Shown one piece after another: positions 8,805 to 35,732 of a DNA stretch of 35,732 nucleotides; position 1 is the stretch's first letter; the number at the start of each line of letters is the position of its first letter. This stretch comes from a virus. Below the pieces are notes generated by a model. It was given only the letters and a program-made list of their open reading frames with translations, was not told the origin of the DNA and made no database searches. A program made the position numbers and the translations under genes. The stretch is taken from IMG/VR virus record IMGVR_UViG_3300025430_000059, positions 1 to 35,732 of that record; one strand, written 5' to 3'.

Positions 8805-8806
8805 TT

Positions 8807-9154
8807 ATGGGACATTTTGCAAAAGTAGTAGATGGTAAAGTAACGCAAGTAATCGTTGCTGAACCTGACTTTTTTACAACATTCGTAGATTCAAGTCCTG
8901 GCACTTGGCTGCAAACTAGCTACAACACAATAGGTGGCAAGCACTTATTGGGTGGCACACCTTTGCGTGGCAACTATGCTGGTGTAGGTTACACATACGA
9001 CCAAGCTAATGATGTGTTTTATGCGCCACAACCTTTTGCAAGTTGGACTTTAAATAAAGACACTTGGACTTGGGAAGCACCAACACCCATGCCTGAAGAT
9101 GGCAAAGCATACAAATGGGATGAGCCAACAACTTCTTGGGTTGAGGTAGTGTAA
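8807..9154 (+). CDS. Conserved virion structural protein (cyanophage-like)
   Basis: A 115-residue protein beginning MGHFAKVVDGKVTQVIVAE. The set of conserved pieces (QVIVAEPDFF, WLQTSYNT, LRGNYAGVGYTYD, FYAPQPFASW, then 'W.WEAPTPMPEDGKAYKWDE') is a familiar small structural protein in cyanophages and other environmental phages, usually encoded among tail or neck genes. It is Trp- and Pro-rich and likely a compact beta fold. The start at 8807 is preferred over an upstream ATG in frame because it keeps the conserved first residues and avoids overlapping the previous gene. The exact position in the virion is unknown. Confidence 0.8.
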   Translation: MGHFAKVVDGKVTQVIVAEPDFFTTFVDSSPGTWLQTSYNTIGGKHLLGGTPLRGNYAGVGYTYDQANDVFYAPQPFASWTLNKDTWTWEAPTPMPEDGKAYKWDEPTTSWVEVV

Positions 9155-10104
9155 TGACTGTAATTATTGACGGCACACGAAGTATTGCTCCTGCACAATG
9201 GACTACTGCTGGTAGGCCGTCAAGTCCTGCGCTGGGGCAATTTGGTTATAACACCACATTAAATCAAGCTGAAATATGGTCAGGAGTAGCTTGGACTGGC
9301 ATTACTAGTCAAACTTATTCAGCATCTTATTTAATAGTTGCTGGCGGTGGCGCTGGTGGTGCTAGAGTTGGTGCTGGTGGTGGCGGTGGTGGACTTCTTA
9401 CTGGTTCAACAACGCTTTCTGTTGGAACAGCTTATACAATTACAGTAGGGGCTGGTGGTGCGGCTGTTACTGATTCTGGTGGAGCAGGTGTAGCTGGAAA
9501 TAGTGGTTCAAATTCAAGTGCTTTTAGTCAAACTGCTATTGGCGGTGGTGGTGGCGGAGCATATAGCGGGCTTGCCGCAAAATCAGGCGGTTCAGGTGGT
9601 GGCGGTTCATATAATGGCGGCACAGGTGGTTCAGGAACTACTGGACAAGGATACGCTGGTGGCAATAACTCAGGAAATGCAAATGGCGCAGGTGGCGGTG
9701 GAGCAGGTGCTGTTGGTGGTGCAGATTCAGGAAATACTGGCGGTAATGGTGGTATAGGGGCAATTTCTACTATTACTGGCTCATCAGTTTATTACGCTGG
9801 CGGTGGTGGTGGTGGTGGCAACACATCAAATGGTGCAGGTGGTACTGGTGGTGGTGGTGCTGGAAATTCTCAAGGATTTACCCCAGCAACAAGCGGAACT
9901 GCAAACACAGGTGGTGGTGGTGGTGGCGTTCGAGATGTAAATGATTCAGGTGGATTTACATCAGGAGCAGGCGGTTCAGGTATTGTTATTGTTTCTGTCC
10001 CAACGGCTTCATATTCAGGCACAACTACTGGAAGCCCTACAGTTACTACTTCAGGTAGCAACACTATATTGTCGTTTACTTCTAGCGGTAGTTACACGGC
10101 CTAA
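9154..10104 (+). CDS. Glycine-rich adhesin / tail fibre tip 2
   Basis: A 316-residue paralogue of the adhesin at 7594. Its own N-terminus (TVIIDGTRSIAPAQWTTAGR, PSSPALGQFGYNTTLNQAE) is a different, common fibre attachment module. It then joins the same SASYLIV entry strand and a glycine-run domain of about 200 residues, ending in the shared SGTTTGSP, TTSGSNT and FTSSGSYTA tail. The two genes thus share distal domain and terminus but not the anchor, suggesting they attach at different places or were assembled by recombination. Codons are strongly GGT/GGC with triplet runs at about 9800-9820 and 9910-9930. Confidence 0.85.
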   Translation: MTVIIDGTRSIAPAQWTTAGRPSSPALGQFGYNTTLNQAEIWSGVAWTGITSQTYSASYLIVAGGGAGGARVGAGGGGGGLLTGSTTLSVGTAYTITVGAGGAAVTDSGGAGVAGNSGSNSSAFSQTAIGGGGGGAYSGLAAKSGGSGGGGSYNGGTGGSGTTGQGYAGGNNSGNANGAGGGGAGAVGGADSGNTGGNGGIGAISTITGSSVYYAGGGGGGGNTSNGAGGTGGGGAGNSQGFTPATSGTANTGGGGGGVRDVNDSGGFTSGAGGSGIVIVSVPTASYSGTTTGSPTVTTSGSNTILSFTSSGSYTA

Positions 10105-12992: not shown

Positions 12993-13973
12993 ATGGCATT
13001 TGCTAACTCAGCAATCACCGATATTATCGCTACCACTATTCAAAGTCGTAGCGGTGATTTGGCAGATAACTTAACACAAAACAACGCAATTCTTACTCGT
13101 TTAAATCAAAAGGGTAACATTAAGCCTTTCTCAGGCGGTAATGTAATCCTCCAAGAAATTATGTACGATGATGCGTCAACCAACAACGCAAACTCCTATT
13201 CAGGATATGAAGTATTGAACATCGCTCCAGATAGCCCTATTTCTGCTGCTCAGTTCAAAATTGCACAGTACGCAGACTCAGTAACAATGTCTGGTCTAGA
13301 AATGTTGCAAAACAGTTCTAAAGAAGCAATCATCGACTTGTTAGATGGTCGTATGCAAGTTTCTGAAGCCCGTTTGCTTAACCGCATTTCTGGTGACTTG
13401 TACGGTGATGGTACTGGTAACGGTGGTAAGAACTTAGATGGTTTGGGCGCTGCTGTTGCAGTTTCTCCTACATCTGGTACTTACGGTGGTATTAACCGTG
13501 CTACTTGGACATTCTGGCAGAACCAAATCACTACTGGTGCTACTTCCTCAACAACCATCCTTGCTGCGATGACTACTGCTGCTATCAAGCAGATTCGTGG
13601 TACAGACAAGGCTGACTTAATTGTTGCTGGTAACACTTTGTATGGTTACTATGTAGGCGCTTTGCAAGCTATTCAGCGTATCGCTTCTGAGGAATCAGGC
13701 GCTGCTGGTTTTGCTTCATTGAAGTTCTACGGTGGTGGTACATCTGCTGATGTGGTATTAGGCGGTGGTTATGGTGCTCAAGAAACAGCTACATATATGT
13801 ATATGTTGAACACCAATTACATCTTCCTACGCCCACATAAAGAGCGTAACTTTGTACCTATCGGTGGCGAGCGTCAGGCTATCAACCAGGATGCGATTGT
13901 AAAATTGTATGGCTGGGCCGGGAATCTTACAACTTCAAACAGCTTCCTACAAGGCTTGTTGACTGGTAGTTAA
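12993..13973 (+). CDS. Major capsid protein
   Basis: A 326-residue protein with the features of an HK97-fold coat protein. The N-terminal helix (DNLTQNNAILTRLNQKGNIK), a P-loop-like GGNVILQE strand, the spine-helix region with SKEAIIDLLDGRMQVSEARL, and the ISGDLYGDGTGNGGKNLDGL turn are typical of podovirus coat proteins in aquatic phages. The C-terminal strand ends in NFVPIGGERQAINQDAIVKL. It is preceded by TTAAGGAT and the scaffold gene, and followed directly by a terminator hairpin, as is usual for this highly expressed gene. Codon use is richer in GGT/GCT/CGT than its neighbours, consistent with strong expression. Confidence 0.93.
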   Translation: MAFANSAITDIIATTIQSRSGDLADNLTQNNAILTRLNQKGNIKPFSGGNVILQEIMYDDASTNNANSYSGYEVLNIAPDSPISAAQFKIAQYADSVTMSGLEMLQNSSKEAIIDLLDGRMQVSEARLLNRISGDLYGDGTGNGGKNLDGLGAAVAVSPTSGTYGGINRATWTFWQNQITTGATSSTTILAAMTTAAIKQIRGTDKADLIVAGNTLYGYYVGALQAIQRIASEESGAAGFASLKFYGGGTSADVVLGGGYGAQETATYMYMLNTNYIFLRPHKERNFVPIGGERQAINQDAIVKLYGWAGNLTTSNSFLQGLLTGS

Positions 13974-24853: not shown

Positions 24854-25368
24854 ACAATTTTAAAGAGTGTTTAGCATTAGTTTTAAAGTCTGAAGGTGGT
24901 TGGACTGGCGCACAAGGCCTTAAAGGTGACCCAGGCGGAGAAACGAATCTAGGCGTTACTAAAGCGGTTTGGGAAGAATGGGTAGGTCATCCTGTTAATA
25001 GTATGAAAAACCTTACTCCTGACCTTGTAGCACCTTTATATGAACAAAGATACTGGAGGCCTTGCTATGGAGAAGTATTACCTAGGGGACTCGACTTGCT
25101 TAGTTTTTCAATGGCAGTTAACGCAGGCCCAGGCAGAAGCGTTAAATTGCTTCAACAATCTCTTGGATGTGTACCTGACGGAGTTATTGGCCCAGCAACA
25201 AGAAGCCTTATTCTCGCAACTAATAGTGCAACTCTTATCTCAAAATTCTCAGAAACTAGGCGGGAATACTACCGTTCATTAAAGACATTTCCTATCTTTG
25301 GTGCAGGATGGTTAAAGCGTGTCGATAATGAAGAAAAAGAAGCATTAAATATGTGCAAGAACGGTTAA
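24850..25368 (+). CDS. Endolysin, glycoside hydrolase 108-like with peptidoglycan-binding domain
   Basis: A 172-residue endolysin. The N-terminal GH108 lysozyme signature is clear: catalytic Glu15 in LKSEGGWTG, then DPGGETNLGVTKAVWEEW (27-44), and YEQRYWRPCYGEVLPRGLDL. The C-terminal region (about 95-150: GPGRSVKLLQQSLGCVPDGV, IGPATRSLI) is the PG_binding_3 helix bundle that binds cell wall. No signal peptide is seen, so release needs the holin. The gene is the last rightward gene of the operon; the second HNH gene converges on it, the two stops overlapping by four bases. Confidence 0.93.
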   Translation: MNNFKECLALVLKSEGGWTGAQGLKGDPGGETNLGVTKAVWEEWVGHPVNSMKNLTPDLVAPLYEQRYWRPCYGEVLPRGLDLLSFSMAVNAGPGRSVKLLQQSLGCVPDGVIGPATRSLILATNSATLISKFSETRREYYRSLKTFPIFGAGWLKRVDNEEKEALNMCKNG

Positions 25369-25856
25369 AGCGCTTTTGCGTAATTCTTGTGTAATTCATA
25401 ACGCTTTTGTAAAGCAACAAAACAAGCATCTTTAAAATCTGTGTAATGACCAAAATGGTATTTTTTCCCATTTAATGCTATTTCAACAGCCCATTTATTT
25501 GCGTCTTTTCTCCAATGCACACCTTTAACACCTGATTTATTGTTAATTGGTTTTTGTTTATTATGTGCGTTTTGACTTTTAGTGGCTTCTCTTAAATTTT
25601 CAATTCTATTGTCATTTCTTATTCCATTTATATGGTCAACCTCAAAAGGAAAATATCCATAATGATAGAAGAATATAAGTCTATGACCTCTGTATCTTTT
25701 TTTATCAACTTTAATATGAACATAACCATCTTGGTTTAATGTTCCAGCTTTAGTACCAGCTTTTATGCTTTGTCTTGCATTTTTCCAGTATAAATTTCCA
25801 TTTTCGTAATCAAAAGTTTCTTTTAATTTTTGTTGGGATATAATTTGGTCAGCCAT
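25365..25856 (-). CDS. HNH homing endonuclease with AP2-like domain (second copy)
   Basis: A 163-residue paralogue of the HNH gene at 458-970, on the opposite strand. Shared features: IISQQKLKETFDYENGNLYW at the start, HRLIFFYHYGYFPFEVDHIN with the HNH His at about 75, NRIENLREAT, and the AP2-like SGVKGVHWRKDANKW, GHYTDFKDA. It lies between the end of the leftward operon and the endolysin, and begins 27 bases after the hairpin at 25883-25918 in its own direction. AGGTATTGC precedes the ATG, close to AGGAGTTGCA before the first copy. The two copies flank the 25 kb virion module in inverted orientation. Low GC. Confidence 0.92.
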   Translation of the reverse strand: MADQIISQQKLKETFDYENGNLYWKNARQSIKAGTKAGTLNQDGYVHIKVDKKRYRGHRLIFFYHYGYFPFEVDHINGIRNDNRIENLREATKSQNAHNKQKPINNKSGVKGVHWRKDANKWAVEIALNGKKYHFGHYTDFKDACFVALQKRYELHKNYAKAL

Positions 25857-26137: not shown

Positions 26138-26355
26138 AGTATTGCTCTAGCAAATTCAACATAACCAAATCTTTCTCCTTCGAGTCTTTGATGTATATGT
26201 TCTTTAGCTATATCAATTATTTCCTCATCTGTTAGTGTCTTTAGCTGTGGCGAGCAAGTATGAATAGAATCACCAGTAACTTTTTGACCGCAAGCAGAAC
26301 AAGCAGTCCATACATCAATTAAAGTAATTGTGCCGTCATGGTTATTTTTAATCAT
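26116..26355 (-). CDS. Small conserved phage protein with Cys pairs
   Basis: A 79-residue protein beginning MIKNNHDGTITLIDVWTAC. The ATG at 26355 overlaps the stop of the preceding gene (ATGA); the longer frame upstream only repeats part of the neighbour. CSACGQKV (residues about 20-27) plus a later HTCSPQL suggest a zinc knuckle. The second half is helical: LTDEEIIDIAKEHIHQRLEG, GYVEFARAILKKAQEK, where 'LTDEEI' is typical of small phage proteins beside 'RAIL' repeats. The C-terminus KKAQEK is identical to that of the preceding gene, owing to a 22-base repeat. Function unknown. Confidence 0.65.
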   Translation of the reverse strand: MIKNNHDGTITLIDVWTACSACGQKVTGDSIHTCSPQLKTLTDEEIIDIAKEHIHQRLEGERFGYVEFARAILKKAQEK

Positions 26356-26591
26356 TTCTCTTGTGCCTTTTTTTCTAATTGATGTACTTTGCTCATTGCC
26401 TGTGTTGCCAAGTTGTGCATATCTTTGTACTTGCGTTTCCATTCTTCTATTTCAAGTGCTTGCTGTTTAACAATGCTTTCTGCAAGCCCAAATTGGCGCA
26501 ACATATTGGCGGCTTTACCAACTAAATGCTCAGATGTATAGGGTTTTTGTCTAGACTTATCTAATTCATCAGCTAGTTCATTTGCGTTCAT
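26352..26591 (-). CDS. Small coiled-coil phage protein
   Basis: A 79-residue helical protein starting MNANELADELDKSRQK. Blocks NANELADELD and GKAANMLRQFGLAESIVKQQ followed by a Glu/Lys coiled coil (ALEIEEWKRKYKDMHNLATQ) are common in small early proteins of many podoviruses of aquatic bacteria; the 'ANELAD..LRQ..ali..' pattern recurs with no known role. It overlaps both neighbours by four bases. The C-terminus KKAQEK is produced by the repeat element. Probably a soluble oligomer. Confidence 0.72.
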   Translation of the reverse strand: MNANELADELDKSRQKPYTSEHLVGKAANMLRQFGLAESIVKQQALEIEEWKRKYKDMHNLATQAMSKVHQLEKKAQEK

Positions 26592-26719
26592 TTTCTCACC
26601 TGTAAAAGTATTGGCCCGAATCTATAAACATAGTATAAATCGCCACCATTAAATCGTAAGTCGCCCCAATGAAACACACCCCCTCTGTGCCAGTGTGTTA
26701 TGTGTAGCTTTACTTTCAT
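26588..26719 (-). CDS. Small hypothetical protein, 43 residues
   Basis: A short gene locked in the operon by ATGA overlaps on both sides (26716-26719 and 26588-26591). The product opens MKVKLHITHWHRGGVFHWGD and is rich in His, Trp, Tyr and Gly, with a basic C-terminus. The His/Trp-rich core could bind metal, but that is inference. Exact coupling, rather than any recognised family, supports it as a gene. It fills what would otherwise be a 124-base gap. Confidence 0.65.
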   Translation of the reverse strand: MKVKLHITHWHRGGVFHWGDLRFNGGDLYYVYRFGPILLQVRK

Positions 26720-26913
26720 ACCTTCTCCACTTCTGTCCAAGCCGCAAAGTGACATAACTGTCCGTCTTTATCTTTGCAGTAACTATACATTCCATCAACG
26801 TGTCCAAACCAATATGCCTCATCAAGGTCTACATCATCATGTGCTGGAGGTACTCTCAATTCTTCATCAGTGATTTTAAACCAATCACCTTTACTCAATT
26901 CATATAGCTTCAT
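26716..26913 (-). CDS. Small conserved phage protein
   Basis: A 65-residue acidic protein. The block MKLYELSKGDWFKITDEELR, PPAHDD, and the end HVDGMYSYCKDKDGQLCHFA recall small early phage proteins of the 'MKLyeL..GtwF' type, which carry a small beta barrel. It starts four bases inside the end of the primase-helicase gene, so the two are translationally coupled, and lies downstream in the same transcript. Biological role unknown. No membrane segment. Confidence 0.7.
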   Translation of the reverse strand: MKLYELSKGDWFKITDEELRVPPAHDDVDLDEAYWFGHVDGMYSYCKDKDGQLCHFAAWTEVEKV

Positions 26914-28487
26914 AGTGTCTCCTGAATCTCTAACATCCGACCAGTGTCTTTGTTGTAGAGCAAGCTTGCACAGTGAGGACTGGTTAACCCACTGAAGCGA
27001 TTCTTTAGAATACTAACCCTCGTAGTATTACGTTCCATCGGGTCTTCATGCTGAGCATTACGAACTAAGCCAATGACAATGTCAGATAGCTGAGCAATCG
27101 ATGCAGAGCCACGCAACTGTGATAAGGATGTTGCAGCACCTTCCTCATGTCCTTTTGATTCAGGTCTTTTCAGGTGTGATACTGCAATCAAACTAATACC
27201 TGTTTCTTGCACAAGCATACGAAGCTTAGTCATAAGTTCATCGATAGCTTTACGCTCATCACCATTAGACTGAGAGGATACAACCATGCTAATATGGTCA
27301 AGAAAGACGTACTTGCAGTCTGCTGCTTTGGCGAAATAGCGTATACGATTGACCACATTGTCGATATCAGTAGAACCAAAGTTATCCCAAAAGAAAAGCC
27401 TATCAGTGCCAAGTGTTGTATCAAAAGCATTCTTTAACTCCTCAGGGCTGACGAGTGTGTCAGGTAGGTGTAGTGGTTTATTCAGATGGAGCGACATGAT
27501 ACCACGAGCAGTCTTACGTACTGACTCCTCCATAAACATCAAGCCGATGTTACCTTCTGAAGATTGAATTAAGTGCCATAGAATCTCTCGTAAGAATTGA
27601 GACTTACCTAGTCCTGAGCCTGCACAGACTGTGATGAGTTCTCCTGGACGAATGCCGTAGGTGAGTTCATTGACTCCTGCCCATGGATAGAGTGCAGATG
27701 ATTTCTCCACAGGTTTATTAACTTCGTCCCATAGCGTAGAGCCTGCGATGATTCCATCAGGTGTCCACTGCTCTGCTGCCCACCATTGTTTGACATACTC
27801 TGCTCCTTTGCCTACTGCAAGATAATCACACGCATCTTTAAAACCTGAGACATGCTTCACTATTTTGCACTTGCTACCAAGAATCTCTGCTACTTCGTTG
27901 GCTGCTTTCTGTCCTGCCTCATCAGCATCAAAGCAGATGTAGATACTCTCGAATGAAGATAACCACTCATAAGCCTGTTTAACATCCTTTAAGGCTGCTT
28001 GAGCACCGTTACGTACTGAGACGTTAGCGTACTTGCTACCACTCATCTGAAAGCCTGCGAGAGCGTCTAGTTCACCTTCGTGAATCGTTACTGTCTTACC
28101 GCCTTTAGCGAACAACTGCTGACCGAACAGTGTAGTGTTCTTCCACTCACCAGTAATACCAAAAGACTTAGTCTCTACCACACGATTCTTAGTGGCTACA
28201 ATAATGCCTTCTGAATCTGCGTAGGGATAATACTGCGTAGTCCCGTCTTGGGATACTCCATAATGCTGACAAGTATCTCGTGTGATACCTCTGTCGCTAA
28301 TCGACATAACACTACCTTTAATTTCTAACATACTTTTCTTCCTTGTAGGCGCAACATAACTTTCTGTTCCATCACCTTTAATATGATTACCACAAACAAA
28401 ACAATATTCATGGTTATCATCATAAATTGCATTACCATCTGAGCTTCCACATTTAAGACATGGAATATGTTTTATTAAATTGCTCAT
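26910..28487 (-). CDS. DNA primase-helicase (T7 gp4-like)
   Basis: A 525-residue replicative primase-helicase. An N-terminal zinc-binding motif (CLKCG... CFVCG; Cys10/13/29/32) precedes a TOPRIM primase region (HEGELDALAG near 137-145 with the catalytic Glu; CFDADEAG 185-192 with the metal-binding Asp residues). The C-terminal RecA-like helicase carries Walker A AGSGLGKS (289-296), Walker B YVFLDHISMV (about 395-404), and the later SLIAVSHLKRP and QLRGSASIAQLSD motifs. In T7 this hexamer unwinds the fork and lays primers. No polymerase is in the window. AGAGAG precedes the ATG. Confidence 0.95.
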   Translation of the reverse strand: MSNLIKHIPCLKCGSSDGNAIYDDNHEYCFVCGNHIKGDGTESYVAPTRKKSMLEIKGSVMSISDRGITRDTCQHYGVSQDGTTQYYPYADSEGIIVATKNRVVETKSFGITGEWKNTTLFGQQLFAKGGKTVTIHEGELDALAGFQMSGSKYANVSVRNGAQAALKDVKQAYEWLSSFESIYICFDADEAGQKAANEVAEILGSKCKIVKHVSGFKDACDYLAVGKGAEYVKQWWAAEQWTPDGIIAGSTLWDEVNKPVEKSSALYPWAGVNELTYGIRPGELITVCAGSGLGKSQFLREILWHLIQSSEGNIGLMFMEESVRKTARGIMSLHLNKPLHLPDTLVSPEELKNAFDTTLGTDRLFFWDNFGSTDIDNVVNRIRYFAKAADCKYVFLDHISMVVSSQSNGDERKAIDELMTKLRMLVQETGISLIAVSHLKRPESKGHEEGAATSLSQLRGSASIAQLSDIVIGLVRNAQHEDPMERNTTRVSILKNRFSGLTSPHCASLLYNKDTGRMLEIQETL

Positions 28488-28531
28488 TTTCTCTCTATTT
28501 AGTTAATGTAGTTTAATATTATAATAATAAC

Positions 28532-28744
28532 TTAATAATCATCTAAGTTACTTAAATCATCTAAGTAGTAATCTAAATCATCTATGTCTTCACTACTTAG
28601 TAAATCTACTCTGTCTCTATATAGTATATCTGTTTTTACTGTTTTAAGACATTTTAAACACATATCAAGAAAATCGTTAGTATTCACTGACTTAATCGTT
28701 GCTTCATAATCAGTCAGCAGGGTGTTACAACAATAACATCTCAT
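28532..28744 (-). CDS. Small acidic protein with paired Cys motifs
   Basis: A 70-residue protein with a Cys-rich N-terminus (MRCYCCNTLL) and a second pair, CLKCLKTV, at about 32-35, consistent with one zinc site. The C-terminus is very acidic (SSEDIDDLDYYLDDLSNLDD). I choose the ATG at 28744 because GGAG stands seven bases upstream; an ATG six codons earlier lacks a site. It lies directly upstream of the primase-helicase gene. Zinc-plus-acidic-tail proteins in this position could act as host or replication modulators, but this is speculation. Confidence 0.68.
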   Translation of the reverse strand: MRCYCCNTLLTDYEATIKSVNTNDFLDMCLKCLKTVKTDILYRDRVDLLSSEDIDDLDYYLDDLSNLDDY

Positions 28745-28812
28745 GGTGGTCTCCAGTACCATTTAAATCGATTTTAAAGCTCTTTACAGCCGTTTTCTCA
28801 TACATTTGATAC

Positions 28813-28938
28813 CTACACCTCATCTTCTTCTTCATCGCCTCCTAGAGCCTCTCCTGAGACGTTGTCACAATCCCAACTTACCCATTCGCAATCCATCTGC
28901 TCAGGTGAATAAGTATTAGCTCGATTAACTTCAGGCAT
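28813..28938 (-). CDS. Small acidic hypothetical protein, 41 residues
   Basis: A short acidic product starting MPEVNRANTYSPEQMDCEW and ending GGDEEEDEV. The chosen ATG (28938) overlaps the preceding gene by eight bases, with GGAG just upstream. A longer form from ATG 28995 exists with AAGGAG 13 bases upstream, but it would overlap the preceding gene by 65 bases in another frame. Two Cys residues and several Trp residues lie in the centre. No family is recognised. The acidic tail resembles small phage proteins that mimic nucleic acid, but there is no proof. Confidence 0.5.
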   Translation of the reverse strand: MPEVNRANTYSPEQMDCEWVSWDCDNVSGEALGGDEEEDEV

Positions 28939-29122
28939 TATCTCCATTAAGGAAAGAGTCTCGTGAATCAGATTGTGTGTTATAATATACCTCATAATAG
29001 TTTCTAAACTCCTTAGCTAATTTTCTCCAAGTAGGAATATTAGTTTCTCCTACTTCTCCTTCATACAATGTAGAAGCAATCCCACCTCTGTTTAGTATAG
29101 CGATTAACTCTGCGTCTGTCAT
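28931..29122 (-). CDS. Small hypothetical protein, 63 residues
   Basis: The product starts MTDAELIAILNRGGIASTLY and continues with a helical, Tyr-rich region (LAKEFRNYYEVYYNTQSD). AAGGAG stands nine bases before the ATG, and the ATG overlaps the preceding tiny membrane gene by four bases, so the start is secure. No known motif. It belongs to the leftward early-type operon and is probably soluble and acidic. Confidence 0.65.
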   Translation of the reverse strand: MTDAELIAILNRGGIASTLYEGEVGETNIPTWRKLAKEFRNYYEVYYNTQSDSRDSFLNGDNA

Positions 29123-29208
29123 TTTATTAACTCCTTATAAATATTTAATACAGTATCTATTACTGAGGATACTGCGAATATAATCAATAATATATCTTCT
29201 CTGTTCAT
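29119..29208 (-). CDS. Tiny membrane peptide, 29 residues
   Basis: Starts MNREDILLIIFAVSSVIDTV and ends with a short helix (LNIYKELIK). One hydrophobic helix covers residues 6-20. AGGAAC precedes the ATG, and the TGA overlaps the ATG of the next gene (ATGA), the same coupling seen through this operon. Together with the two tiny genes to the right it fills a stretch of 340 bases that holds no longer open frame. Codon-level evidence is limited by its size. Confidence 0.55.
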   Translation of the reverse strand: MNREDILLIIFAVSSVIDTVLNIYKELIK

Positions 29209-29209
29209 A

Positions 29210-29326
29210 TTAGTTCCTATGATAAGCGTCATGGGGATGTGTGAACATGCTGGCTAATAGCTCATCTACATTCTTAAACCATTGAATTACCTTTAAGCCA
29301 TTAGCCTGATAAATAGTAAAGCTCAA
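29210..29326 (-). CDS. Tiny hypothetical protein, 38 residues, TTG start
   Basis: Begins at TTG 29326 in the overlap TTGA with the preceding stop. A strong GAGGAGG is seven bases upstream, inside the preceding gene. The product opens MSFTIYQANGLKVIQWFKNV and ends in a His-rich tail (FTHPHDAYHRN). It has one alternative in-frame ATG at its second half, which would leave only 13 residues. The exact Shine-Dalgarno placement and coupling support the TTG start. Confidence 0.58.
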   Translation of the reverse strand: MSFTIYQANGLKVIQWFKNVDELLASMFTHPHDAYHRN

Positions 29327-29475
29327 AATAGTGCCTCCTCAAATTGAAACTTCGGTGCTTTTCTTAGCTCGATAGTCCAAGCATTAAAGCCTACGAATGC
29401 GAGAGCCTCAGCTTTAGTATAAAACCATCTAAAGGCGATACCATCCTCATCGTGAACCCAATATTTACTTAGCAT
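29323..29475 (-). CDS. Small hypothetical protein, 50 residues
   Basis: Starts MLSKYWVHDEDGIAFRWFYT; the rest (KAEALAFVGFNAWTIELRKA) forms an alternating aromatic pattern suggesting a small beta-alpha fold. The ATG lies inside the end of the preceding gene (overlap 11 bases). Its 'F.tkaEAlAFv' segment resembles small host-takeover proteins in podoviruses whose functions are unknown. No membrane helix. Confidence 0.62.
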   Translation of the reverse strand: MLSKYWVHDEDGIAFRWFYTKAEALAFVGFNAWTIELRKAPKFQFEEALF

Positions 29476-29722
29476 TTACAATTTCTTGCGTAAGATAGGC
29501 AGTGCATGTTAGGAATGCTTTCTTAATCTTGTTAATTTTCTTGACATCGTCCCAGTCTATATGGTCATTGGCTGGTCGCTTGTGAGCATTGACTGCCATC
29601 GTTACCAAGTCAAGCAGAGAGATAGTCTCGACTGCTTTAGGGTCATCGCCTACGAAGAGCTGAATTTGCCCTCTATCATTCATCCAGATATCTACATCAA
29701 GGTCTACGCTAATTTTACTCAT
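29465..29722 (-). CDS. Small conserved phage protein, 85 residues
   Basis: An acidic protein beginning MSKISVDLDVDIWMNDRGQI. A beta-rich first half is followed by helices (ISLLDLVTMAVNAHKRPAND, KKINKIKKAFLTCTAYL). No catalytic motif is seen. It overlaps its upstream neighbour by eight bases and its downstream neighbour by eleven. The compact alpha-beta profile suggests a single soluble domain. I do not recognise a family. Confidence 0.65.
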   Translation of the reverse strand: MSKISVDLDVDIWMNDRGQIQLFVGDDPKAVETISLLDLVTMAVNAHKRPANDHIDWDDVKKINKIKKAFLTCTAYLTQEIVNAK

Positions 29723-29921
29723 TTTCGTTTGCTTTCACATAAGAATGTAAATTAAACCATATTTCACGCAGGGATGTAGGATACATTTCCAATAACCAAT
29801 CTTGAAAAGCGTTGGCTGGGTTAATGTTTAACAAAAAACCCTCTTCATCTCTGCATTGCATTAAACAAACTACTAAATTTTCTAATGATTCTTGACTAAT
29901 ATTCTTTTTATCTGACTTCAT
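29715..29921 (-). CDS. Small hypothetical protein, 68 residues
   Basis: Opens MKSDKKNISQESLENLVVCL and continues with a helical stretch (MQCRDEEGFLLNINPANAF) and a Trp-containing end (DWLLEMYPTSLREIWFNLHS). It appears soluble and mixed helical. Overlaps of four and eight bases with its neighbours show operon coupling. No known domain is visible. Confidence 0.62.
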   Translation of the reverse strand: MKSDKKNISQESLENLVVCLMQCRDEEGFLLNINPANAFQDWLLEMYPTSLREIWFNLHSYVKANENE

Positions 29922-30262
29922 AACTTCTCCTTATTTTTAAAATCTTTAGACATCCAAGAGTCTACCGCTTGGTCTACATGGTCGCCTGTGAGCCACACGT
30001 GCGTAGTCATCTTACCATCACACAGCACGATAGCTGGTGCAATCTCTTCTTGAGGCACATCCCATGAGCCATCACGTAGCCAGCGATAACGTTCAGCATC
30101 TAAGAAGTTCTGATTGTCGCTTAACATCTTAGCGAACAGGTGTGCTCTGTTATCCTCTTGTGCTTCGAGAGCATCAGCAGCCCTCATCAGGAGTGAGCGA
30201 GTAACGACGTACTCATCCTTATCAGCGTATGCTCTTAGTTGTTTAACGAGGTTCTCAACCAT
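29918..30262 (-). CDS. Conserved phage protein with RYRWLRD motif
   Basis: A 114-residue protein. The N-terminal helix pair (ENLVKQLRAYADKDEYVVTR, LLMRAADALEAQEDN) and DAERYRWLRDGSW form a familiar pattern in proteins of many siphoviruses and podoviruses, usually labelled hypothetical. The second half (APAIVLCDGKMTTHVWLTGD, HVDQAVDSWM) has an alpha-beta look. The 'LRAYADKDEYVVTRSLLMRA' style is typical of DUF-type early phage proteins. Coupled upstream to a small membrane gene. Role unknown. Confidence 0.72.
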   Translation of the reverse strand: MVENLVKQLRAYADKDEYVVTRSLLMRAADALEAQEDNRAHLFAKMLSDNQNFLDAERYRWLRDGSWDVPQEEIAPAIVLCDGKMTTHVWLTGDHVDQAVDSWMSKDFKNKEKL

Positions 30263-30428
30263 GATTACTCCATACTAAAATTTGAACTACTACACAAGGA
30301 AAAAGCAATAACCAACCAACCCATACAAAAAGTCCTACAAAAATGTTTTGTAAATCTAATGACCAATTATATAAAAAAGCAAAGACCATTAGGTAGAAAA
30401 CTGCTAAACATCCTAAGAAAATTATCAT
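30255..30428 (-). CDS. Small membrane protein, two transmembrane helices
   Basis: A 57-residue, very hydrophobic product. The first helix covers about residues 2-20 (IIFLGCLAVFYLMVFAFLY), then a short polar loop (NWSLDLQN), then a second from about 29 to 52 (IFVGLFVWVGWLLLFPCVVV). The stop overlaps the next start by eight bases and the ATG overlaps the previous stop by four. A small two-helix membrane protein in an early operon could alter host membrane or block superinfection; this is inference. It is not the lysis holin, which lies elsewhere. Confidence 0.68.
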   Translation of the reverse strand: MIIFLGCLAVFYLMVFAFLYNWSLDLQNIFVGLFVWVGWLLLFPCVVVQILVWSNHG

Positions 30429-30598
30429 TGTTTTACAGTCTCCGCAGAATGATACATGGACAAAATATCCATAATTACTTTACCTTCACCATATTTTAAC
30501 ATCATAGCGACTGCGTCGGCAAGTGTATTGTGGTAGCAAAATTCTTCCCACATTAGTTTAGCCTCTTCAGGAAACATCTCAGCCTGTGTATTAGTCAT
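30425..30598 (-). CDS. Small conserved phage protein, 57 residues
   Basis: Begins MTNTQAEMFPEEAKLMWEEF at ATG 30598, overlapping the preceding stop by eight bases; a longer frame upstream overlaps that gene much more and is not favoured. Helical and acidic: CYHNTLADAVAMMLKYGEGK, IMDILSMYHSAE. Its 'MF.EEAk.mWEEF' start recurs in small early proteins of podoviruses, of unknown function. Confidence 0.62.
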   Translation of the reverse strand: MTNTQAEMFPEEAKLMWEEFCYHNTLADAVAMMLKYGEGKVIMDILSMYHSAETVKQ

Positions 30599-30875
30599 AG
30601 CCGTATTTCTCCACGTGTGTAATAGCCTTATCATACGCTAAAGTTGCATAAAAGTCTTCTACTTCTTTCACGACAATCATCGGAGCATGCGACTGCGTAG
30701 GGTATTGCTCCAGCGTATAACCTAGAGCCTTGAGTGCATCAGCCCATAAGTCTTCGTCAGGCATAGGATATTCATCCCTGAGAATGGTCTCAGTCCAGTA
30801 CACGACGGCATCGTTAAAAGCCTCTTCGTCATCCTCATCGTCTTCAGGTTCATAATACCTATCTTCCGTATACAT
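30591..30875 (-). CDS. Acidic hypothetical protein, 94 residues
   Basis: Highly acidic N-terminus (YTEDRYYEPEDDEDDEEAF) followed by an alternating helical/beta region with WTETILRDEYPMPDEDLWAD and GYTLEQYPTQSHAPMIVVKE. Strong acidity suggests a possible nucleic-acid mimic or regulator, as for several T7-type early inhibitors, but no known family is seen. The start is placed at the only in-frame ATG with AGGATT upstream. It is part of the leftward operon. Confidence 0.65.
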   Translation of the reverse strand: MYTEDRYYEPEDDEDDEEAFNDAVVYWTETILRDEYPMPDEDLWADALKALGYTLEQYPTQSHAPMIVVKEVEDFYATLAYDKAITHVEKYGYD

Positions 30876-30878
30876 GGT

Positions 30879-31049
30879 TTAATCCTCCAAGTTAAGTAGT
30901 AAGTGTAAGCCCTTTACTTCTAGCGTACAACCACTAGCAACATAAGTAGCACCATTTGATTCTACATGCTGTACTGTAGCCTCAGGAAAGTTCTCATCCA
31001 TATAAGTAATCAAGTCATCTTTGGTATTAAAAAATATATCATGCTTCAT
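30879..31049 (-). CDS. Small hypothetical protein, 56 residues
   Basis: Begins MKHDIFFNTKDDLITYMDEN at ATG 31049, with GGGAG about five bases upstream overlapping the preceding stop region; the longer frame from an upstream ATG would overlap that gene by 40 bases and lacks a site. Compact alpha-beta look (ATVQHVESNGATYVASGCTL, EVKGLHLLLNLED). One Cys. No family is recognised. Confidence 0.62.
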   Translation of the reverse strand: MKHDIFFNTKDDLITYMDENFPEATVQHVESNGATYVASGCTLEVKGLHLLLNLED

Positions 31050-31053
31050 TGTA

Positions 31054-31275
31054 TTACTCCCAGTCTTTAAAGTCACCACTACGCTCATTGTCAAAATAAC
31101 CCTGCATGTATACTGCTATCTCTTCATCGGTCAAATCAGTGACGGCCTCGCCGTTGTAACTGCCTTCAGGATAATAGTGAGGCCTCATTGGCCTGCGATA
31201 ATAAGAGTCAGCTCCGCCTCTATCGTATAGGCTGCCATGGTTTGCTATTGTGCTGTGAAAGTCTATTGCGCTCAT
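31054..31275 (-). CDS. Small conserved phage protein, 73 residues
   Basis: Starts MSAIDFHSTIANHGSLYDRG. The middle (GGADSYYRRPMRPHYYPEGS) is Tyr/Arg/Pro-rich and the tail carries DLTDEEIAVYMQGYFDNERS. The N-terminal block and the 'DRGGADSYY.R...PHyYP' stretch are typical of a small early phage protein found in many podo- and siphoviruses, without known function. AGGAAAA precedes the ATG. It marks the left border of the GGCC-rich block. Confidence 0.72.
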   Translation of the reverse strand: MSAIDFHSTIANHGSLYDRGGADSYYRRPMRPHYYPEGSYNGEAVTDLTDEEIAVYMQGYFDNERSGDFKDWE

Positions 31276-31286
31276 GATATTTTCCT

Positions 31287-31448
31287 TTATGCGTGTACGT
31301 TATTAGTATTAAACAAGTCTCTACCTAAGTCTATTAGGGTTTTCCCTTGCTCTTCAGTCATCCCTCTATGCTCTGCAAACAATGCAGGGCTAAGATAGTT
31401 ATTTTTAAAGTCCAAATACTGCTCGATTAAATAGTCTCTAGTGCTCAT
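31287..31448 (-). CDS. Small conserved phage protein, 53 residues
   Basis: A gene in the gap between two longer frames, starting MSTRDYLIEQYLDFKNNYLS with GGAG nine bases upstream. The helical product carries ALFAEHRGMTEEQGKTLIDL and ends NTNNVHA. The 'EhrGmteeqg..Li.lgr' segment recurs in small early proteins of T7-like and other podoviruses and is usually unannotated. Acidic and soluble. The upstream gene ends three bases before the start. Confidence 0.68.
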   Translation of the reverse strand: MSTRDYLIEQYLDFKNNYLSPALFAEHRGMTEEQGKTLIDLGRDLFNTNNVHA

Positions 31449-31451
31449 GGT

Positions 31452-31676
31452 TTAATCTCCTACTCTTATAAATTGAAAATGGTCTTTAATAAACTGCTCG
31501 GCCTCATCCTGGACAATCTCCCAATGGCCTGTAGTGTTGCCATTAGTATCTCGCACTTTTCCCTTAGTAAGGCCCAGGCCTACATCACTTGCAATGTATT
31601 CCACGTTCTTTCTTAGCTCGTATCCTAGGTCCTGGTATGCGTCGTTATCCAGGTTAATATTTAATTTGAATTCCAT
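31452..31676 (-). CDS. Small hypothetical protein, 74 residues
   Basis: Starts MEFKLNINLDNDAYQDLGYE, then RKNVEYIASDVGLGLTKGKV and a short C-terminus with HWEIVQDEAEQFIKDHFQFI. The pattern of an acidic strand, a helix and a Trp/Phe-rich end recurs in small phage proteins often annotated as hypothetical. It lies in the GGCC-rich block. TAATG couples it to its upstream neighbour. Confidence 0.66.
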   Translation of the reverse strand: MEFKLNINLDNDAYQDLGYELRKNVEYIASDVGLGLTKGKVRDTNGNTTGHWEIVQDEAEQFIKDHFQFIRVGD

Positions 31677-31978
31677 TATGCATTCTCCATTAACTCGGCC
31701 CAGTCCTGGCCTCTTTCTGCTGCAACAAAATCATATGAACCTTTTGTACCTGCTTGCACTTGGTCTCTAGATGGAATGTGATTACCATAATAATCTCTTG
31801 CTTCGCTCTTACCTAGCATGCAAAGGCCTGCCGATATTGCGTCCATCATGGCCCTGCCATATGAACCCTGAAGGCCCCATAATCCACTGTTAATAGTACG
31901 TTGCAAGGCCTGGTAATAATCCTCCATTGTGGCCTCTTCGTCGCATTCGATTGTATCGATATCATTTAAGCTTAGCAT
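31676..31978 (-). CDS. Conserved phage protein, 100 residues
   Basis: Begins MLSLNDIDTIECDEEATMED and contains YYQALQRTINSGLWGLQGSY, GRAMMDAISAGLCMLGKSEA, RDYYGNHIPSRDQVQAG. The 'GLWGLQGSYGRAMM.AI..G.C.lG...a.DYYGN.iPSR' series is a recurrent early protein in podo- and siphoviruses; its function is not known to me. Soluble and mixed helical. TAATG links it to the gene before. It is within the GGCC-rich block. Confidence 0.75.
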   Translation of the reverse strand: MLSLNDIDTIECDEEATMEDYYQALQRTINSGLWGLQGSYGRAMMDAISAGLCMLGKSEARDYYGNHIPSRDQVQAGTKGSYDFVAAERGQDWAELMENA

Positions 31979-32184
31979 TATTTTACCCCTTGAATTAAAC
32001 CGTCTACCATTGTGACAGTCGCAAAAAACTCTCGGCCCAGGCCTGTAATATGGGGACGGTTTGCCCCTGTAATGCTGCCAGTGGCCTTATACTCAGGACC
32101 AAATAAACTGGTCTCTATATATCGCAACGGTTTACCAATGCTTTCTTTTAATGCTTTCTTGCTTACGTATTTAAGTACAATCAT
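31978..32184 (-). CDS. Small conserved phage protein, 68 residues
   Basis: Basic N-terminus (MIVLKYVSKKALKESIGKPL), then RYIETSLFGPEYKATGSITG, ANRPHITGLGREFFATVTMV. The block 'KkaLKe.iGk.LryieTS.fGpEy...G...GanRP' is a conserved early-region protein in environmental phages. It is probably a small beta-barrel, possibly nucleic-acid binding from its charge. AGGAG precedes the ATG, and a weak hairpin sits upstream of it. Confidence 0.72.
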   Translation of the reverse strand: MIVLKYVSKKALKESIGKPLRYIETSLFGPEYKATGSITGANRPHITGLGREFFATVTMVDGLIQGVK

Positions 32185-32233
32185 TTTAAATTCTCCTAGT
32201 TAGTTAGACTACAATTACAGTTTAGTAAGTAAA

Positions 32234-32252
32234 ACCTATATCGTCTATAGGT
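32234..32252 (-). terminator. Weak hairpin between GP88-like gene and downstream genes
   Basis: ACCTATA, loop TCGTC and TATAGGT form a perfect seven-base-pair stem, followed leftward by TTTACTTAC. The stem is AU-rich, so it may be a partial terminator or a processing site rather than a full stop. It lies in the 76-base gap upstream of the 68-residue gene. Confidence 0.35.
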
Positions 32253-32260
32253 GTTTACCC

Positions 32261-32998
32261 TTAGTTAAGTACAAATCCTGAATTATCTTTTACGGCCTTG
32301 CCCTTGGCATACAATGCGACAATATGGCCTTGAGGCTCAACGTGACGCACGTCGCTATCGTCACCAGGTAAGACGGTCATGCCCTTGAATGTTAATGGGA
32401 TATCGGCCTTAAACCTAAACACTGCAGCGATACGGAATTGGTTTTTAATAGCAAGCTTATTAAATTTTGTAAACGTGCTGGCCCCTGAATAACTAAACGT
32501 CAAATCATAATTATTGGGTAAGTCTTTTCTATTGGGTATTTTTGTATAATCGTAAAATTGTACCAATGGAAAACGGGCCATTAAATTGGGATAAGCTTTA
32601 CCGTCAAAGTCTATAAACCCTTCATTTTCCCAGCGTATGTCCGACGTACCGTTTAACCTAATAAGCAATTCCTGGCCCAGCTTAGCAGCTTTACGCTGGC
32701 CCTTTTCTATATCTTTTATTAGGTTTAACAGAAAAGATTGTTTATTATTAAAAAAGCTTTTAGTCTTATTGATACGTGCCAATTGAATAGAATTGAATGC
32801 GCCTCGGCCTGCAGTGTATAAACAGGCCTTTTCACAATTGGCAGCTTTTGCCATTGGGCATACCTGGTGACCTGATATATCCGACGGGGCCAGATATAGG
32901 ATACCTGTATAAAATCCCAGCTTTTCACCTTTGACGGTTTTCGCATTGGTATTAAAACCTAGTAAGGCCTTGCGCTTGAATTGTAATTTATAACTCAT
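32261..32998 (-). CDS. GP88-like cysteine-containing protein
   Basis: A 245-residue protein resembling the mycobacteriophage gene product 88 family. Signs are the N-terminal LGFYTGILYLAPSDISGHQV, a Cys cluster CPMAKAANCEKAC (Cys47, 55, 59), LLIRLNGTSDIRWENEGFID, VQFYDYTKIPNRKDLPNNYD and LTFSYSGAS. The strand-like blocks 'RLNGTSDIRWE', 'FYDYTK', 'LTFSYSG' and the Cys cluster suggest a half-barrel with a bound metal or Fe-S cluster, in the manner of radical-SAM-like enzymes, but the classical CxxxCxxC spacing is not present. Function unknown. AAAGGA precedes the ATG. It is in the GGCC-rich block. Confidence 0.72.
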   Translation of the reverse strand: MSYKLQFKRKALLGFNTNAKTVKGEKLGFYTGILYLAPSDISGHQVCPMAKAANCEKACLYTAGRGAFNSIQLARINKTKSFFNNKQSFLLNLIKDIEKGQRKAAKLGQELLIRLNGTSDIRWENEGFIDFDGKAYPNLMARFPLVQFYDYTKIPNRKDLPNNYDLTFSYSGASTFTKFNKLAIKNQFRIAAVFRFKADIPLTFKGMTVLPGDDSDVRHVEPQGHIVALYAKGKAVKDNSGFVLN

Positions 32999-33012
32999 GA
33001 TGTATTGTCCTT

Positions 33013-33111
33013 TTAAAGTGTATCAGTAACGATAAGTATGAGCACTGTAAACAATCCTGCCATTAGGATAAACCCTAAGACGTTTGCTAGTATGTTAATT
33101 AGTTTATGCAT
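33013..33111 (-). CDS. Tiny membrane peptide, 32 residues
   Basis: A single-helix membrane peptide: MHKLINILANVLGFILMAG, then LFTVLILIVTDTL. It has a strong AAAGGG eight bases before the ATG and ends 14 bases before the GP88-like start. It is the first gene of the leftward operon after the long leader. No relatives are recognised. Because it is short, it could be overlooked; the good ribosome binding site and hydrophobic composition support it. Confidence 0.62.
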   Translation of the reverse strand: MHKLINILANVLGFILMAGLFTVLILIVTDTL

Positions 33112-33170
33112 GGTGTAACCCTTTATTGAATAGTTAAACTGTAAAGCATGTATACACTATAACGGGCCAT

Positions 33171-33192
33171 TGCCATATAAATCTATAGGGAT
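33171..33192 (+). promoter_or_regulatory. CTATAGGG element 1 (T7/SP6-like promoter candidate)
   Basis: Contains TAAATCTATAGGGAT and matches element 3 on the opposite strand at 20 of 22 positions, both beginning TGCC. The CTATAGGG core equals the initiation end of T7-class promoters. A transcript from the first G would begin GGGATAAACCC, a small hairpin. No single-subunit RNA polymerase gene is in the window. Confidence 0.42.
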
Positions 33193-33247
33193 AAACCCTA
33201 GGTTTTAAGCTTTTACATTTCACAATATGAGAAAAGCCAGGGCCATT

Positions 33248-33256
33248 CTATAGGGG
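33248..33256 (+). promoter_or_regulatory. CTATAGGG element 2
   Basis: CTATAGGGG preceded by GCCATT, resembling element 1 with three bases missing between GCCAT and TCTATAGGG. Same orientation as element 1, 68 bases away. Less complete than elements 1 and 3. Confidence 0.3.
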
Positions 33257-33373
33257 ATAACGGGATAGTAACTGCAGGGCATTGGGCAGGGTTGTCTTAT
33301 CATTTCGCATTGTGGAATAGTACTTAGGTAATGAAGGTAAGTTATTGAATAGATTACTGCAGCGATAACTCAT

Positions 33374-33414
33374 TAATTAATACGATAGTTTATAGAGTCT
33401 TTATCGATTAATTA
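33374..33414. repeat. AT-rich inverted repeat
   Basis: TAATTAATACGATA (33374-33387) and TATCGATTAATTA (33402-33414) are inverted copies with one extra base, around a 14-base loop. AT-rich with a CGAT core; it lies midway between elements 2 and 3. It could be an origin or a protein site. Confidence 0.5.
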
Positions 33415-33461
33415 GATAAGGGCTTGGCAGTACTTAGCAGGCCTGGGCAAAGCTGGGGAGA

Positions 33462-33483
33462 ATCCCTATAGATTTACAGGGCA
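33462..33483 (-). promoter_or_regulatory. CTATAGGG element 3 (leftward)
   Basis: The leftward reading is TGCC, then TAAATCTATAGGGAT, 20/22 identical to element 1. A transcript would begin GGGATTCTCCCC, again a short hairpin. It points toward the leftward operon. Confidence 0.42.
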
Positions 33484-33609
33484 GGGGAGGGTCAAAAAGA
33501 ATTATTATAGTTTTTATATAACGCTATTTATAACGCTGACATACTTTTTAAAACAAGGGGTAGTATCCGCATAGAGAAGTCTAGGAAAGACTGCAGAGTT
33601 ACTAGGCAG

Positions 33610-33683
33610 GGCTAACCTGTGCTCGGTAGCCTGTGGAAGATGTGCTCGAAGCACTGTGAAGGGCTGAGAAGTTCTCTTTGCCC
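33610..33683. ncRNA. Candidate structured RNA: three consecutive stem-loops
   Basis: Stem-loop 1: GGCT and ACC pair with GGT and AGCC across a TGTGCTC loop, one bulged A (33610-33631). Stem-loop 2: GTGCT-CGA-AGCAC (33642-33654). Stem-loop 3: GGGC and GAGA pair with TCTC and GCCC with short internal asymmetry (33661-33683). The stretch is much GC-richer than its surroundings and has no open frame. Read leftward it would be the early part of the operon's leader; orientation is not settled. Confidence 0.42.
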
Positions 33684-33688
33684 TATAG
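33681..33688 (-). promoter_or_regulatory. CTATAGGG element 4 (leftward)
   Basis: Leftward reading TAGTACTATAGGGCA. The core ACTATAGGG matches the T7 promoter initiation region, but the upstream bases differ from elements 1 and 3. A transcript from its first G would start with GGGC of stem-loop 3, so its 5' end would be folded. Confidence 0.33.
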
Positions 33689-33758
33689 TACTACATAGAT
33701 AAAGACATCTTAGTAGCTACTTAGTAATAACCTTTAATAGTAAACTCTATAAAATACT

Positions 33759-33800
33759 TACTATACAGAAACTAAAAAGAACTACTAAGATACTATACAG
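33759..33800. repeat. Direct repeat TACTATACAG, 32 bases apart
   Basis: TACTATACAG occurs at 33759-33768 and 33791-33800, spaced by 32 bases, about three helical turns, just downstream of the leftward promoter. A protein binding site pair is possible. Confidence 0.4.
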
Positions 33801-33803
33801 TAT

Positions 33804-33832
33804 ATAATAGCATACATTTTTAGATTTGTCAA
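33804..33832 (-). promoter_or_regulatory. Leftward sigma70 promoter
   Basis: On the minus strand TTGACA (33832-33827, perfect) and TATTAT (33809-33804, one mismatch) with a 17-base spacer. It would transcribe leftward from about 33797 into the long leader and the early-type operon. Divergent from the promoter at 33949. Confidence 0.65.
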
Positions 33833-33876
33833 GTACTATCTTCATTGTCTTTATTGTCTCTTTTAGATTAGGGTTT

Positions 33877-33934
33877 TGTATCTCATAGTATACATAACGT
33901 AGGTATTTGTAAACAATGAGATACATTTTGTATC
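33877..33934. promoter_or_regulatory. Operator-like inverted repeats TGTATC
   Basis: TGTATCTCAT (33877-33886) and ATGAGATACA (33916-33925) are perfect 10-base inverted copies. A third half-site TGTATC (33929-33934) forms GATACA-TTT-TGTATC with the second. The array lies between the two divergent promoters and ends 15 bases before the rightward -35, a typical place for repressor or activator binding. Confidence 0.6.
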
Positions 33935-33948
33935 TTTTAAAATAATCC

Positions 33949-33977
33949 TTGACTTTTAAACAAAAGCATGTTATAAT
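33949..33977 (+). promoter_or_regulatory. Strong rightward sigma70 promoter
   Basis: TTGACT (33949-33954), 17-base spacer, TATAAT (33972-33977): the best promoter in the window. The start of transcription would be near 33984, so the ATG at 33976 and the TTG at 33949 cannot be used. The ATG at 34000 with AAAGGA upstream is the gene start. Confidence 0.82.
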
Positions 33978-33999
33978 GACCCCACAAGTAAAGGAACGT

Positions 34000-34545
34000 A
34001 TGACAAGGCGTAAAAAGAGAGATTTAAAAGCTGAAGGTAAATGGTGGTCGGATACTCAGAAACTTGAGGCTGCTACTACATTCTTAGCTTTAGGCAATGG
34101 CGCACAGACTGCTGCTGTCTTAGACATACCCTTAGCTACCTTTAATCGTTGGCGTTATGCTGACTGGTTCAAGAAGATGGTTGATGACCTTAAGTCTGAA
34201 GATAACTTAAAGCTCAATGCTAGGTTAACTAAGATTGTGTCTAAAGCTTTAGATGTGACTGAGGACCGCTTAGAAAAAGGTAACTATCAATATGACCCTA
34301 AGACTTCTGAGCTAATTCGTGTTCCTGTCAGTTTAAAGGATGCTACCAAGGTCGCTAATGATATGTTAGCTCGTAAGGACATCATTGAAGATAAGCCTAT
34401 ACAGGAGCAGATAGAGCGTACTGTAGACGACAGACTAGCTAAGCTTGCTGAACAGTTCAGAGCCTTTGCTAAGCCTAAAACAACTGAAAAAGATATTACA
34501 CCTCAACCTTTGGTACTCGAACATGCCCCGCAAGGAACCACGTAA
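34000..34545 (+). CDS. terS: Small terminase subunit (TerS2)
   Basis: A 181-residue protein. The start at 34000 is fixed by AAAGGA and by the promoter, whose -10 overlaps upstream ATGs. An N-terminal HTH region (WWSDTQKLEAATTFLALGNG, AQTAAVLDIPLATFNRWRYA) is followed by long helices (KLNARLTKIVSKALDVTEDR, LEKGNYQYD) and VPVSLKDATKVANDMLARKD, the usual layout of small terminase proteins of this type in podo- and myoviruses. It should bind viral DNA and pair with TerL2 downstream. Unlike TerS1 it has a clear HTH and normal length. Confidence 0.82.
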   Translation: MTRRKKRDLKAEGKWWSDTQKLEAATTFLALGNGAQTAAVLDIPLATFNRWRYADWFKKMVDDLKSEDNLKLNARLTKIVSKALDVTEDRLEKGNYQYDPKTSELIRVPVSLKDATKVANDMLARKDIIEDKPIQEQIERTVDDRLAKLAEQFRAFAKPKTTEKDITPQPLVLEHAPQGTT

Positions 34546-34786
34546 CTACAAACAAGAATATAAAGACTACCATGGTACTGGGACTCAAAAGAAGAACAGA
34601 GCCTCCAGGAATGGTGCAAGAGCTGAAATGGCTTCTGCTGGTAAGGTCTCCAAAGGTGATGGTAAAGAAGTTGACCACAAGAAACCTTTAAGTAAAGGCG
34701 GTAGTACCGCTAAGAGCAACCTTCGAGTTGTAAGCAAGGCAGTAAATAGAAAAAAAGGTAATAGAACGAGTGGAGCTAACAAGTGA
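34523..34786 (+). CDS. HNH endonuclease of packaging module
   Basis: An 87-residue basic HNH protein overlapping TerS2 by 23 bases. It begins MPRKEPRNYKQEYKDYHGTG and carries KKNRASRNGARAEMASAGKV, then KGDGKEVDHKKPLSKGGSTA, KSNLRVVSKAVNRKK. EVDHKKPLSKGG with the following Asn and His/Asn positions is the HNH core. Such short HNH proteins sit beside terminase genes in many phages and help cos cleavage or packaging. No relationship to the HNH-AP2 genes. It ends inside TerL2. Confidence 0.88.
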   Translation: MPRKEPRNYKQEYKDYHGTGTQKKNRASRNGARAEMASAGKVSKGDGKEVDHKKPLSKGGSTAKSNLRVVSKAVNRKKGNRTSGANK

Positions 34787-35732
34787 AGTCATTGAAGGTT
34801 TTAGTAACGCCTGTCTAGTTAAGAACTATGATTCGGCTACGGAGACCCCAGAATTCCACAGAGAACTGTGGAGCTTGTGCTGCCATAAAGACAAGTTTGT
34901 TGCTATTGCTGCTCCTCGTGGTCATGGTAAATCTACTGCCGTCACTTACGCATATTGTCTTGCAGAAGTACTATTTCGTAGGTCTAAGTATGTCTTGATT
35001 GTCTCAGACAGCTTCTCGCAAGCTGGTTTGTTCTTAGGTGATATTATTAAAGAACTCAGGGACAATGACGATATACATGGTTTATTTGGTAACATTGAGT
35101 TGACAAAGCAAACCGAAGATGATATAATAGGTAAATTCGATGATGGTCATACATTTAGAATCCAAGCTAAAGGTTCAGAACAAAAGCTTCGTGGTTTGAA
35201 ATGGCTGAACAAACGTCCAGACTTAATCATCTGTGACGATATGGAATCTGATGAACAGGTTCTAAACAAGGATAGACGTGAAAAGCTTCGTAGATGGTTC
35301 TACTCAGCTCTTATCCCTGCTCTGTCAGTTACAGGTAAGATTCGCATAGTAGGTACTATTTTGCACTTAGACTCCCTTCTTGAAAGGTTGATGCCTGAGT
35401 CCCAACTAGCCTCGCTGGGCACTAAAGCTTTAAAGAATCTCATTACTGAAGATTTAAAGCAGTTTACAAATTACAAGACTTCTTGGTTGTCCATTAAGTA
35501 CAGAGCACACACAGATGACTTTAGTAAGATACTGTGGCCTGATAGATGGAACAAGAAAGCTTTAGAAGAGCGTAAAGCTCAATACGTCGCACAAGGTTTG
35601 GCTGACGTATATTCTCAAGAGATGCTCAACGTACCTCTTGATGATGCTAACGGATTCTTTAAAGAAAGTGATTTTACTCCTTTAAAAGACGAAGATAGAA
35701 AACTTAACCTAAATTATTATATAGCTGCTGAC
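34770..35732 (+). CDS. terL: Terminase large subunit (TerL2), partial
   Basis: The first 321 residues of a second, different TerL, cut by the window edge. It starts at GTG 34770 (AAAGGT ten bases before), overlapping the HNH gene by 17 bases. Walker A is APRGHGKST (48-56), Walker B DLIICDD (151-157), the coupling motif IVGTILHLDSLL (193-204), and the late DANGFFKESDF region leads to the start of the nuclease domain (YYIAAD at the edge). Sequence differs throughout from TerL1 at 2245. The module TerS-HNH-TerL is a usual order in podoviruses. Whether its portal gene follows is beyond view. Confidence 0.92.
   Translation, partial: MELTSEVIEGFSNACLVKNYDSATETPEFHRELWSLCCHKDKFVAIAAPRGHGKSTAVTYAYCLAEVLFRRSKYVLIVSDSFSQAGLFLGDIIKELRDNDDIHGLFGNIELTKQTEDDIIGKFDDGHTFRIQAKGSEQKLRGLKWLNKRPDLIICDDMESDEQVLNKDRREKLRRWFYSALIPALSVTGKIRIVGTILHLDSLLERLMPESQLASLGTKALKNLITEDLKQFTNYKTSWLSIKYRAHTDDFSKILWPDRWNKKALEERKAQYVAQGLADVYSQEMLNVPLDDANGFFKESDFTPLKDEDRKLNLNYYIAAD

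Follow-up and report, generated by a model that had tools for sequence, protein, structure and literature searches.

A virus contig with two large terminase genes is very probably an assembly chimera of two phages joined within a shared small gene

The window is the whole stretch of DNA analysed here, the 35,732 bases of the complete virus record IMGVR_UViG_3300025430_000059 in IMG/VR. It carries two genes for large terminase subunits (TerL). The window was first matched against every locus retrieved from IMG/VR and afterwards compared at single-base level with two contigs, and on this basis it divides into a phage A segment (positions 1–26585) and a phage B segment (positions 26586–35732).

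The phage A segment contains TerS1 and TerL1, portal, capsid, tail and lysis genes and the first leftward small genes. TerL1 (2245–3591, plus strand) is 448 aa and matches phrog_2 with an E-value of 7.5e-37. It has the Walker A motif AHRRCGKT and an acidic Walker-B-like motif, VLDEYAD. Directly 5' is an open reading frame (ORF) of 82 aa (2009–2257, plus strand), which by its position is a putative small terminase subunit. The portal protein gene follows TerL1 (3591–5855, plus strand; phrog_12082, E=3.9e-179), and the major head protein gene is at 12993–13973 (plus strand; phrog_9953, E=3.2e-93). The closest named relatives of TerL1 are from Methylophilales phage Venkman (EXVC282S), pelagiphages and Rhodoferax phage P26218, with 42–44% aa identity.

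Positions 1–26585 are identical to the phage A contig IMGVR_UViG_3300025466_000103 (35687 bp), with 0 mismatches in 26585 bases. Three other contigs, 3300004770_000220, 3300025648_000085 and 3300025403_000188, show 99.9–100% identity to parts of the segment. Beyond position 26585, 3300025466_000103 continues into an early region with genes other than those of the window. Contigs 3300025648_000085 and 3300025403_000188, like A, pass the same site into sequence that differs from the window, and the relatives L252 and L253 likewise pass into an A-type early region (95.7%). The two ends of the A contig adjoin in many relatives (L119, L111, L116, L106), usually with a gap of about 42–46 bases, and the A contig is therefore an essentially complete genome (about 35.7 kb). 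It has one TerL (phrog_2), one portal (phrog_12082) and capsid (phrog_9953) and its own early region past the join. A misjoin within the A contig itself was considered and rejected, since three identical contigs, and diverged relatives too, show the same arrangement. The HTVC010P-type podoviruses and relatives (Pelagibacter phages HTVC010P and Greip, Venkman, P26218) have genomes of about 34–39 kb, compared with 35.7 kb for A; they have one TerL, with 42–44% aa identity to TerL1, and are only distant in sequence, the comparison being one of TerL.

Phage A also carries related genes of two kinds. Three related HNH genes of one type are found at window positions 458–970 (plus strand) and 25365–25856 (minus strand) and at 33340–33834 of the A contig (window orientation; L328/L329). 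They are about 67–71% alike in DNA and represent a small homing-type gene family within one genome; the gene at 458–970 contains HNH_3 and AP2 domains. In the virion module, glycine-rich ORFs at 7579–8493 and 9154–10104 are about 66% identical in DNA across 767 bases and are likely a duplicated tail or fibre gene.

The phage B segment consists of leftward early genes, including a primase-helicase gene (26910–28487, minus strand; phrog_239, E=3.3e-177) and a GP88-family gene (32261–32998, minus strand; Pfam PF17338, E=2e-37), followed by TerS2, an HNH gene and TerL2. The putative small terminase subunit TerS2 is an ORF at 33949–34545 (plus strand), so named from its position; no small-terminase profile matches it or TerS1 at E-values up to 10. 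The HNH endonuclease gene lies between TerS2 and TerL2 (34445–34786, plus strand; Pfam PF01844, E=6e-5; phrog_4590, E=5e-19). TerL2 (34770–35732, plus strand; phrog_38, E=3.2e-53) has the motifs APRGHGKST (Walker A) and LIICDDMES and is cut short by the contig end after 321 aa. The full gene, in contig IMGVR_UViG_3300025423_000194 (L342, positions 8288–9805), encodes 505 aa.

Window positions 26483–35732 differ from this phage B contig (12,633 bp) by one mismatch in 9250 bases, at position 29036, and are 99.99% identical to 3300025402_000207. Past the window end, the B contig completes TerL2 and then has an HNH-like gene and a portal gene (phrog_1216). The exact phage B parent was not recovered as a single contig; its proxies are the 12.6-kb contig and diverged relatives. 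These relatives are 44–46 kb in length with end repeats of 99 bp (3300025429_000002), 46 bp (3300032753_000055) and 126/127 bp (3300032579_000032). TerL2 has 52–53% aa identity to the proteins of Caudoviricetes sp. MW202796 (43.8 kb, Manatee Spring) and Alcaligenes phage vB_Af_QDWS535 (50.1 kb). The size of MW202796 is near that of the B relatives, and the likeness to both phages is a comparison of TerL alone.

Between the GP88 gene (minus strand) and TerS2 (plus strand) is a 950 bp region of phage B, window positions 32999–33948, in which no ORF reaches 60 aa. Starting near position 33440, parts of the region are 94–99% conserved in close B relatives. It may contain promoters, or an origin of packaging or replication.

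The two segments meet at positions 26483–26585, a stretch of 103 bp that is identical in A and in the 12.6-kb B contig and is the sole exact match of at least 17 bp between these two contigs. Phage A departs from the window at position 26586. The identity to each parent and the position of the join are read directly from the alignments. The join is inside a 79-aa ORF (26352–26591, minus strand) that is common to A and B, and the reading frame is intact across it. The ORF has 98.7% aa identity to A and, against the B contig ends, 100% aa identity over 36 residues. B-type contigs from three assemblies stop within this gene, at 26483/26484 in two cases and at 26449 in the third (3300025381_000879). 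A 185-base probe spanning the junction (window 26418–26602) has no other match in IMG/VR, in a scan that may omit the window's own record. In tetranucleotide profile, the correlation between the two window parts is 0.77, compared with 0.91 between the left part and the A early region and 0.91 between the right part and B-type genomes. Composition is weak evidence, however, because the left part also correlates at 0.88–0.91 with B-type genomes.

The 79-aa gene itself has an uneven distribution. A near-identical part of it is present at the left ends of L002, L003 and L008, and phage types A and B are unrelated. The exact match covers 103 bp; in L008 the shared stretch reaches 137 bp, with a single difference at position 26451. 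A close B-type contig (L170) has different genes at this site, and L190–L192 of the B clade have a 38% homologue. The gene looks like a small gene recently exchanged between two unrelated phage types.

The sequence-only reading of this record had pointed to two complete, unrelated terminase modules on one contig. Both TerL genes are indeed present with their ATPase motifs, and the two Walker A motifs it cited are found in the ORF translations, but the second module is incomplete in that TerL2 is truncated. The two TerL genes fall into separate PHROG TerL families, phrog_2 and phrog_38. That reading had proposed to see whether a second portal and capsid follow to the right of TerL2; a portal gene is found there in the B contig, and portal, capsid and tail-fibre genes are found 3' of TerL2 in the B relative 3300032579_000032.

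Co-occurrence of the two genes was surveyed in 34 relatives, none of which has TerL1 and TerL2 together. Within the survey are 26 genomes sampled from both clades. Eighteen have TerL1 (69–100% identity) and no TerL2 match; eight have TerL2 (87–100% identity) together with the helicase and no TerL1 match. The B-type helicase is absent from G001 and the other TerL1 genomes, save for one 23% fragment (E=5e-5). Three further genomes with the helicase have only a distant TerL1 relative (35–36%) and lack TerL2. The phrog_2 profile weakly matches three B-type contigs at the TerL2 gene itself, and this signal thus reflects similarity across families rather than an additional gene. The idea that A hides another, diverged terminase was likewise rejected, as phrog_38 has no match in G001. 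The rule of one TerL per genome is a direct observation in these relatives, and on sequence evidence each of the two phages uses a single packaging motor. A literature search, judged by titles and abstracts, gave no relevant case of a two-terminase phage among the papers listed.

The contig is very probably an assembly chimera of phages A and B, joined at 26483–26585. A chimeric assembly of two phages had been among the options offered by the sequence-only reading, and it agrees with the finding that each part is near-identical to another, independently assembled contig. Phages A (about 35.7 kb) and B (relatives of 44–46 kb) would both hold a near-identical part of the small 79-aa gene. The assembler would have left genome A at this shared stretch and continued into genome B, and the structural half of A would thereby be fused to the early half of B, which ends in the B terminase. 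The ends of B contigs within the 79-aa gene would be the expected residue of an ambiguous node in the assembly graph. Chimeric contigs that form at sequences common to several genomes are documented in viral metagenome assembly (PMC3901335). Those chimeras resemble this contig in that two genomes are placed in one contig and joined at a common sequence; that study differs in having used simulated reads, while the chimera here is deduced from independent contigs.

The join most likely arose during assembly, not through natural recombination. A real hybrid of A and B that formed very recently in nature, with its crossover in the 79-aa gene and carrying both TerL1 and TerL2, is improbable, even though a crossover is physically possible if B truly carries the shared gene, as it may, and even though the join falls in a perfectly shared 103-bp stretch usable for recombination and leaves the ORF in frame. 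Such a phage would have had no time to diverge, given 0 mismatches to A and one base of difference from B, and its junction is in no other contig or assembly of the collection. It would have lost the early genes of A, would run into the second portal of B, which would probably give it a bigger genome than either parent has, and would need to tolerate two packaging modules. In addition, the B-type contigs break right at the shared stretch, as an ambiguous assembly graph predicts.

A different position for a chimeric join, at 33–34 kb, had been suggested from the sequence, and a break was to be sought at 32.5–34.2 kb. The direction of the genes does change there, and the region at 33.0–33.95 kb (950 bp) is free of long ORFs. 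This position can nevertheless be set aside as the least probable of all the explanations. The stretch at 32.5–34.2 kb is continuous in the independent contigs 3300025423_000194 and 3300025402_000207, which are unbroken across 26.48–35.73 kb, and the actual join is about 7 kb further left. The GP88 gene and TerL2 are also linked in four more contigs (3300020683_000008, 3300022602_000659, 3300032579_000032 and 3300020734_000011), which makes six contigs besides the window in which GP88 and TerL2 lie together. Misassembly through the HNH genes at 458–970 and 25365–25856 was rejected as well, since these are only about 67% alike and occupy the same places in A. That leaves a phage clade with a natural pair of packaging motors, or a satellite that has captured a terminase, both of which had been put forward as options. 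The sole support for either is that this one contig carries both TerL genes, and they are extremely improbable in light of the 26 of 26 sampled genomes of both clades that have one TerL and never both. For a captured module or satellite there is the further difficulty that genomes of the TerL2 clade have their own portal, capsid and tail genes after TerL2.

The observation of two terminases is thus most likely an artefact of the record. Reading the contig as an assembly chimera of A and B removes a false two-motor phage, for which, if real, the question would be how both motors are kept apart. The record can be flagged as chimeric and is unsuited to gene-content statistics, host linking and genome-based taxonomy. 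Two TerL genes on one metagenomic contig are a useful alarm for chimeras, and one small gene common to unrelated phages can suffice to cause one. One minor genuine finding is the near-identical stretch of a single small gene that the two unrelated phages appear to share.
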